A stretch of 64,000 nucleotides of DNA from the NCBI RefSeq assembly GCF_019444005.1, contig NZ_CP049304.1:1550001-1614000 (forward strand). Direction: 5' to 3'. The translations under genes and the position numbers were made by a program. The notes below the pieces were generated by a model. That model made no database searches and was not told the DNA's origin. It saw only the letters and a program-made list of their open reading frames with translations. This stretch comes from Liquorilactobacillus nagelii DSM 13675. GTDB taxonomy: Bacteria > Bacillota > Bacilli > Lactobacillales > Lactobacillaceae. This document shows, piece by piece, positions 27,594-61,239 of the stretch (its first letter is position 1; the number at the start of each line of letters is the position of its first letter).

Positions 27594-30510
<2,917 letters not shown>

Positions 30511-56577: not shown

Positions 56578-57129
56578 CTAAAAAGAAACCTTAGGCGCAT
56601 TTTTTTCTTCAGTCGGTACTTCTAAATAAGCAACTTTAGTCATTCCATGGATTTTAGCAATCATATTCGACGGGAAAGTTAACAATTTCTGATTGTAGGC
56701 TGCCGCACTTGAATTAAATAACTGGCGTGAATAAGCAATTTTATTTTCTGTATTTGCTAATTCTTCCATTAACTTGGTGAACTCTTGATTAGCCTTAAGA
56801 TCAGGGTAACTTTCAGCCAAAGCAAAAATTGATTTTAGCGATTCACTCAATTGATTGGACAGTTCCATTTTCTTTTGTTGCTGATCAGTTGGAACACTAA
56901 TTAACTGGTTACGTAATTCAACAACTTGAGCAAAAGTTTCACGTTCATGCTTAGCATAGCCTTTAGTTGTTTCAACCAAATTTGGAATCAGATCATTCCG
57001 TCGTTTCAATTGAACATCGATTTGGCTCCAAGATTCATCTGTGTAAACTTTAGCTTTTTGCAGACCATTGTAAATAGCAATGTAAGCAACAACTATAACA
57101 GCTATTATTAAAATTATAATCCAGATCAT
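56578..57129 (-). CDS. lemA: LemA family protein
   Basis: 183 residues. One N-terminal membrane helix (about 2-22) is followed by a helical domain with SWSQIDVQLKRRNDLIPNLV and the ENKIAYSRQLFNSSAAAYN signature, ending with the usual FPSNMIAK segment. Function of the family is unknown; it commonly accompanies htpX. ATG at 57129 with GGAGG. It is downstream of the candidate small RNA. Confidence 0.93.
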   Translation of the reverse strand: MIWIIILIIAVIVVAYIAIYNGLQKAKVYTDESWSQIDVQLKRRNDLIPNLVETTKGYAKHERETFAQVVELRNQLISVPTDQQQKKMELSNQLSESLKSIFALAESYPDLKANQEFTKLMEELANTENKIAYSRQLFNSSAAAYNQKLLTFPSNMIAKIHGMTKVAYLEVPTEEKNAPKVSF

Positions 57130-57257: not shown

Positions 57258-57296
57258 ACTAAAAGCCGGGTGCAAAACAAGCGTTTTGCCCCGGCT
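57258..57296 (-). terminator. Terminator of the candidate small RNA
   Basis: On the minus strand AGCCGGGGCAAAAC pairs with GTTTTGCACCCGGCT (one mismatch) around GCTT, followed by TTTAGTTT. It is the strongest hairpin in this intergenic region. Confidence 0.85.
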
Positions 57297-57458
57297 AAAT
57301 AACGGTACCAATTATGGTAAGCTACATTCACTCCACAATGTCTGCAGCAGGCACACCAGAAAATCCGCTGGTATCTGTGTCCCGTTTCGATTTGAACCAT
57401 CAATTGCCGCAGCAAAATAATGAAAATCATTACCTGGTTCTTCTCGACTCATCGCATA
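57258..57458 (-). ncRNA. Candidate structured small RNA (about 200 nt)
   Basis: Read on the minus strand, a promoter at 57465-57492 is followed by about 200 bases able to fold into a branched structure and then by a strong terminator (57258-57296). Stems include GAACCA/TGGTTC (57435-57440 with 57394-57399, extended by TCGA/TCGA) enclosing two hairpins: TTGC-TGCG-GCAA (57404-57415) and AATGA/TCATT (57418-57432). A further stem is ACCAG/CTGGT (57355-57372). No protein of credible length or ribosome binding site was seen; a 54-codon reading frame (57312-57476) starts without one. The identity is unknown; it does not look like the rod shape of 6S RNA. Confidence 0.55.
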
Positions 57459-57464
57459 ACTCAA

Positions 57465-57492
57465 ATCATAACACATTTTTTTTTTTTAACAA
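57465..57492 (-). promoter_or_regulatory. Promoter of the candidate small RNA
   Basis: Minus-strand -35 TTGTTA (57487-57492), a 16-base spacer that begins with an A-run, and -10 TATGAT (57465-57470). It starts past the stop of the GNAT gene at 57518. Confidence 0.65.
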
Positions 57493-57517: not shown

Positions 57518-57952
57518 TTAAATTGCCTTTTGCATTTGATGATGCGGAATTCCCGCATCAAAAAAGCCCGCACCCACAACATGAAATCCCAATTTTTGAT
57601 AAAAAGATTGTGCTTGGTCTTGAGCACCTAAAGTCAGATAAGGTATTTGCTGATTGCGCGCGTCTTGTTCAATCTTTTGTAATAGTTTGCTAGCTAATCC
57701 CTGACTTCGATAGGCCTTACGAGTAGCTACTCTTTGAATATGCCAAGCTCCATCTCTTTCAACAATTACCCGAGCTGTCGCCCCTGCCACATCAGCAACA
57801 TATGCAACATAGTATACTGCTTGATCTTCATGATCCAATTCCAATTCTGGTGCTACGCCTTGTTCAAGAATAAAAACTTCTTTCCGAATTTCTACTGCTG
57901 CTTGATAGATTTCTCCATAATTTCCCTTGACAATTTTAATAATTGGTTGCAT
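57518..57952 (-). CDS. GNAT-family N-acetyltransferase
   Basis: 144 residues. A start VKGNYGEIYQAAVEIRKEVF is followed by the acetyl-CoA-binding region QRVATRKAYRSQGLASKLL and a C-terminal FYQKLGFHVVGAGFFDAGIPHHQM. The overall pattern resembles the ElaA/YjcF type. The substrate is unknown. ATG at 57952 with AGGAGG. It is upstream of the small RNA candidate. Confidence 0.88.
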   Translation of the reverse strand: MQPIIKIVKGNYGEIYQAAVEIRKEVFILEQGVAPELELDHEDQAVYYVAYVADVAGATARVIVERDGAWHIQRVATRKAYRSQGLASKLLQKIEQDARNQQIPYLTLGAQDQAQSFYQKLGFHVVGAGFFDAGIPHHQMQKAI

Positions 57953-61134: not shown

Positions 61135-61239
61135 TTGAGACTCTCCTTTGCCCTAATTCATTTGCTGAACTAGAGTTGATCTTAATATAAAATACAACAA
61201 ACCAAATAGTATCATAAAACCGTCAACCATGCAACTTTG

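Follow-up and report, generated by a model that had tools for sequence, protein, structure and literature searches.

A Ref68/Lacto-3 RNA of Liquorilactobacillus nagelii, its kinship with streptococcal MarS, and the complementarity of its 5' end to 23S rRNA

Rfam family RF02840, entitled 'Enterococcus sRNA 68 (Lacto-3 RNA)', and the streptococcal RNA MarS (asd, RF01732) are the closest described systems for the RNA considered here; Rfam assigns neither Ref68 nor asd to a clan. MarS is reported to be transcribed independently, and in Streptococcus pyogenes an mga leader probe was no longer shifted after a two-base exchange at CC88-89 (PMC5613026). The target, mga, is a streptococcal gene. In Streptococcus pneumoniae D39, the 'asd RNA motif' was entered as the 140-nt srf-17 (PMC6212727), and the wide distribution of MarS is already in print. 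The Enterococcus faecalis sRNA pair sRNA_112/sRNA_005 is described as having a highly conserved first 50 nt in which predicted target sites lie (PMC7724050).

We analyzed a window of 64,000 nucleotides from L. nagelii DSM 13675 (contig NZ_CP049304.1, positions 1,550,001 to 1,614,000). The RNA gene and all of its features are on the minus strand, in a gap between a GNAT ORF (57518-57952) and a lemA ORF (56578-57129), both likewise on the minus strand and both named from Pfam matches; the ORF coordinates give the same 388 bases as a preliminary description of the locus. That description proposed a structured small RNA between lemA and the GNAT gene. Such an RNA is supported by an RF02840 match, by the predicted fold, and by covariation, but the family, for which the description offered no name, is a catalogued one. 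The features are these:

57465..57492, minus strand: promoter-like TTGTTA-16-TATGAT, TG-extended (pattern scan; the −10 position recurs in relatives)
57444..57457, minus strand: near-invariant 5' end AUGCGAUGAGUCGA, antisense to 23S rRNA (sequence comparison; start from −10 spacing)
57328..57456, minus strand: body of the Ref68/Lacto-3 RNA (Rfam RF02840 model, matched over its whole length; 83.8 bits, cut-off 44)
57394..57440, minus strand: P1 three-way junction, with closing helix 57435-57440/57394-57399, P1a 57417-57433, and P1b 57404-57415 (RF02840, fold, covariation)
57350..57383, minus strand: P2, with inner hairpin ACCAG/CUGGU at 57355-57372 (Rfam and R2 models; family helices 4-6)
57321..57348, minus strand: P3 (57343-57348/57321-57326) around the P4 hairpin (57329-57340), loop GUGG (fold, covariation, R2)
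57306..57320, minus strand: P5 hairpin, beyond the Rfam model (R2; 97.5% paired)
57259..57296, minus strand: terminator-like bulged stem and short U tract (predicted fold; sequence)
27974..27987, minus strand: 23S rRNA stretch UCGGCUCAUCGCAU, proposed partner of the RNA 5' end, outside the gene (complementarity)

The RF02840 match has an E value of 2.9e-16 and spans model positions 1-124 of 124, which makes this RNA a member of the family. Its 5' block, UGCGAUGAGUCGAgaa, equals the RF02840 consensus over the first 16 positions, and the three-way junction, the P2 hairpin, and the GUGG-loop hairpin align to the model with few non-standard pairs. One difference lies at the 3' side: the Rfam model ends before P5 and the terminator, both of which are in the conserved unit. 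The L. nagelii genome has a single copy. Two further Rfam matches in the window, at 690-826 and 61143-61175 (minus strand), are an L10 ribosomal protein leader (RF00557, 79.2 bits) and an L31-Firmicutes leader (RF03156, 35.8 bits, slightly above its cut-off of 33.3).

Among 295 sampled genomes of the order, RF02840 matched 147 at E ≤0.001, once in each, and 75 passed the cut-off. With 30 further genomes of f4 (streptococci, inferred as such from asd/MarS matches) that were found by the asd model, the superfamily RNA is present in at least 177 of the 295. In genus g2 of f1, the window's own family, all 13 sampled genomes were without a Ref68 match at E ≤0.001; 12 of the 13 have the G form of the 23S stretch listed above, and none has the A form of other f1 genera.

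Nine sequences, drawn from families f2 and f3 and not including the window, were used to build model R1, which matched the window at 49.6 bits (E = 8e-13). It found the RNA in 56 of 65 sources, missing L032-L037, L042, L072, and L077; three of the 60 rows of this search fell elsewhere and were taken as chance. Over 60 genomes of the order it yielded 18 matches, fewer than the Rfam model because it was built from two families. One source, L057, gave two R1 rows: in this genome (G001) the RNA at 1833-2167 on the minus strand looks split or duplicated, with the 5' block, three-way junction, and a terminator-like end of its own at 2004-2167, and P2 to P5 without a 5' block at 1833-1989. Outside the order, model R2 (described below), run with strict filters on 398 genomes of the class, gave seven matches, all within the order; this is a lower bound, since streptococci were missed as well. 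The 5' motif behind a −10-like box occurred in nine of the 398, three of them outside the order (L220, L227, and L228); Rfam gave nothing for these three up to E = 0.5, and their R2 matches were short and weak (best, 14.8 bits).

The segment 57255-57456 has a predicted folding energy of −71 kcal/mol (z = −4.44), and none of 200 shuffles was equally stable. Because MAFFT alone misaligns the Ref68 family, we used a model-based alignment, A4, with 50 matches from 49 sources and 48 pairs; one row, the second L057 match, is without the 5' block. In A4, 92.9% of the cells in the 48 pairs are standard and all 48 pairs change on both sides, figures that lean toward the structure to which the alignment was fitted. 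Covariation, proposed earlier as a check on relatives, was 0.595 in this fitted alignment, compared with 0.185 for shuffled alignments and at most 0.102 for slid partners, and all nine helices covary. P5, which is outside the Rfam model, is on its own 97.5% paired. Between congeners, P3 is recoded on both sides, from GCUGCA/UGUAGC to UAUGUC/GGCAUA in Liquorilactobacillus sicerae. The conserved fold is thus a 5' single strand, the P1 three-way junction, P2, P3/P4, P5, and the terminator stem.

Most stems proposed in the preliminary description hold within this fold. GAACCA/UGGUUC, AAUGA/UCAUU, and UUGC-UGCG-GCAA are covarying family helices in A4, and ACCAG/CUGGU, gapped in the window's A4 row, was aligned to the inner P2 helix by both the Rfam and R2 models. 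UCGA/UCGA is a candidate helix, predicted for the window RNA and its Liquorilactobacillus ghanensis counterpart and, in longer form, for L. sicerae; the outer P2 helix, P3, P4, and P5 had been overlooked.

At the upstream end, the promoter that had been claimed, TTGTTA-16-TATGAT, is found at 57492-57465 with TG preceding its second hexamer; as a pattern, however, it is weak, with two sites in 461 bases against 1.8 expected in shuffles. Its −10 recurs in relatives: 142 of 146 have a −10-like box ahead of the RNA (≥4 of 6 matches, the best of 11 positions, counted without a shuffle control), and in 110 of 146 it ends 7 to 8 bases before UGCG. From the −10 spacing, the RNA likely starts at 57457 or 57456. 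At the other end, the predicted terminator stem is long and GC-rich with one bulge, but the terminator had been called strong, and this is only half right because the U tract that follows is poor (CUUUUAG) and a terminator pattern scan of the locus found none. We infer that the RNA is transcribed from its own promoter; its separate transcription has only the indirect support of relatives, MarS being reported as an independent transcript and the asd motif of S. pneumoniae being listed as srf-17.

That Ref68/Lacto-3 and MarS behave as one superfamily is well supported, because model R2 recovers the MarS loci and the two Rfam models fall on shared places. The training set of R2 was the 50 RNAs in A4, which include no f4 sequence; the model finds six of six f4 (MarS) loci at 30 to 35 bits (E = 9e-6 to 9e-5). 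Of the 60 genomes chosen for the asd model, 20 were matched by both Rfam models (15 of f4 and five others), and in all 20 the matches lie at the same place, with 5' ends one base apart when the tables were compared by eye. Sequences matched by both models at one place, in L039, L041, L042, L043, and L046, bridge the two entries, and the Lactococcus lactis genome, included among the controls, is likewise matched by both. Across the 60 chosen genomes, the asd model matched 45 of 45 in f4, four of five in f5/f7, one of six Ref68 carriers in f1-f3, and none of four without a Ref68 match. The common descent so indicated is that of a superfamily, not a family: on the window, the asd model scores 17.7 bits (E = 0.34; cut-off 84), which places this RNA outside RF01732, and the window's genome (G000) has no asd match at E ≤0.001. 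The weak asd alignment on the window starts at the same 5' block and extends to the terminator.

The RNAs of the two entries share the 5' block, and their elements follow one another in the same order as far as the terminator. They differ in P1, which is a single hairpin in the streptococcal loci, where in some sequences the predicted fold also takes in UGCG from the 5' end. The window RNA does not lie next to asd; it is flanked by GNAT and lemA. At one f4 locus (L260, genome G180), a MarS match of 79.5 bits, below the cut-off of 84, has unrelated sequence in place of the promoter side and 5' block, which may reflect a true loss, an inserted segment, or a join made in assembly. A third Rfam family, COG3610-DE (RF03066), may also belong to the superfamily: it matched the RNA of a relative, at L038:4004-4124 on the plus strand, below threshold (36.3 bits; cut-off 73.5; E = 0.0075), but did not match the window at any E value up to 1.

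We favor, at a probability of about 0.65, the reading that this locus encodes a trans-acting, base-pairing RNA of Ref68/Lacto-3 of about 200 nt. Such an RNA would be transcribed from its own promoter, starting at (A)UGCGAUGAG, and would work in trans by base pairing through two surfaces. One would be the P4 loop (UGUGRA), which corresponds to the MarS loop reported to bind the mga leader: CC88-89 falls in loop UGUGUGAACCU of the Rfam asd consensus, equivalent to the P4 loop UGUGGA of the window, but the CC itself sits just past the loop segment conserved across the Ref68 family. Because of this correspondence, we regard the P4 loop as one likely contact. The other surface would be the near-invariant 5' end; within the genome, 23S rRNA is its best complement.

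The neighborhood fits a trans-acting RNA, since neighboring genes are common only within clades and differ from clade to clade. An exact 23-mer of the RNA led to two named records, L. ghanensis and L. sicerae (records of very near relatives were possibly omitted), and in both the order is again GNAT, RNA, lemA, and an htpX-like peptidase, as assigned by eye. A cis-acting leader or riboswitch for lemA would account for this constant position upstream of lemA on the same strand, but it is improbable: a terminator-like stem intervenes, and in other clades the downstream genes are different. The earlier judgment that this is no riboswitch agrees with ours. More improbable still is a gene for a small protein in the 54-codon frame at 57312-57476 on the minus strand. 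The frame is open, and its later part is mostly retained in L. ghanensis, but it begins ahead of 57457, the likely first base of the RNA, it is frameshifted by an insertion in L. sicerae while the stems are retained, and the base-paired changes run across the order. We dropped this reading; the preliminary description had also noted that the frame lacks a ribosome binding site.

The 5' end has the consensus (A)UGCGAYGAGNYGA, the reverse complement of which occurs in 23S rRNA, at about positions 2506-2519 in E. coli numbering. In the window, the 5' end forms 14 of 14 pairs with 27974-27987, one of them G-U. Genome-wide, when fewer than three G-U pairs are allowed, the 5' end matches only its own gene and the six 23S copies; a 22-mer also finds six copies, of which the window copy alone was placed inside an annotated 23S gene. 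A match equal to this one arose by chance in one of 5,000 shuffled 13-mers, three of 4,605 random 13-mers from the window, and none of 400 shuffled 14-mers. The P2 loop, the P4 loop, and the tail gave short or poor matches to rRNA.

We collected 176 5' ends, from 146 of the 147 Ref68 genomes and the 30 further f4 genomes, and left out two (G180, described above, whose 5' end is replaced, and G280, which has a one-base insertion in the motif). The remaining 174 depart from the consensus as follows: U1 to C once (G273), C3 to U once, A8 to G six times, and A13 to G and to U once each; the N at position 10 is U in 140, C in 22, and G in 12. Pairing with the 23S stretch is kept at 13 of 13 positions in 160 of the 174 ends and at 12 of 13 in 14, with 62 ends whose facing base at position 6 was unseen counted as paired there. 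The breaks are U1 to C, A13 to U, and G10 in 12 genomes of f5, which faces a G in an rRNA that is unchanged where seen (G060). In 50 of these 62 genomes, all those searched for the 23S stretch with up to three mismatches, no match was found, and we therefore take it to be missing from those assemblies. Where the facing rRNA base is known, the combinations at position 6 (rRNA base/RNA base) are A/U in 59, A/C in none, G/U in 35, and G/C in 18; because every C6 comes from family f3, the table is no independent test. Among substitution types, six of nine keep the pair (hypergeometric p = 1.7e-4 with all changes equally likely); for transitions only, six of seven do (p = 0.025). Pairing of the 5' end with the 3' tail of the RNA itself, which we termed P0, was rejected as a source of this constancy: 67.9% of cells were paired, against 67.6% in shuffles.

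The 5' end may be a guide that pairs with the 23S strand of helix 90, next to the peptidyl transferase center, in which case the RNA might act in ribosome assembly, affect rRNA turnover, or sense free rRNA. This would be compatible with a trans-acting RNA and would differ in the partner. The length of the match and its rarity by chance, its restriction to the 23S copies and the gene itself, the pairing kept in most ends, the pair-keeping substitutions, the empty A/C class, and the failure of own-tail pairing to explain the constancy all point this way. Weighing against it are the smaller excess among transitions, the G10 that faces G in f5 and the two single breaks, the confinement of C6 to one family together with the 62 unseen alleles, and the one f4 RNA without a 5' block. 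The first 14 bases are predicted to be moderately open (mean, 0.38 to 0.50 by family), with bases 10-13 pairing with a downstream UCGA in the window's predicted fold, and the target strand is buried in the mature ribosome. We accordingly hold the guide to be a doubtful proposal, and equally doubtful its order-wide form, in which Ref68/Lacto-3 and MarS are one RNA of the order whose 5'-terminal 13 bases are antisense to this strand.

The 5' end may instead be an mRNA seed, a protein-binding site, or a promoter-proximal DNA site, the 23S match being due to chance; we put this somewhat short of even odds. sRNA seeds of 6 to 8 bases suffice, and seeds this short would escape our scans with 9 or 13 bases; the motif lies at a promoter, where a DNA site is possible. 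The 9-mer CTCATCGCA has seven non-rRNA sites, of which one (L096) is 43 bases upstream of a mechanically called ORF of 222 bases, two are inside ORFs, and four are neither. Against this explanation, wobble sites for the 5' end show no excess in the genome (30, versus 26 for a reversed control), and an rRNA match of this length is rare by chance.

What is new here is the link between Ref68 and MarS in one superfamily and the complementarity of the 5' end to 23S rRNA; the family itself, RF02840, was already known. We found no statement of the identity of Ref68/Lacto-3 with MarS in the open-licence literature, judged mostly from listings, and no report, by title or start of abstract, of an sRNA complementary to 23S rRNA. 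The window copy is an ordinary match to a catalogued family. Its interest is that two entries catalogued separately, one of which has been studied functionally, seem to describe a single RNA, whose most constant part points to one partner; the complementarity makes that ribosomal partner a specific, testable lead. If the guide proposal were true, the RNA known for regulating streptococcal virulence genes would serve an older, core function at the ribosome, for example in the folding or quality control of the 23S precursor or in the sensing of free rRNA.
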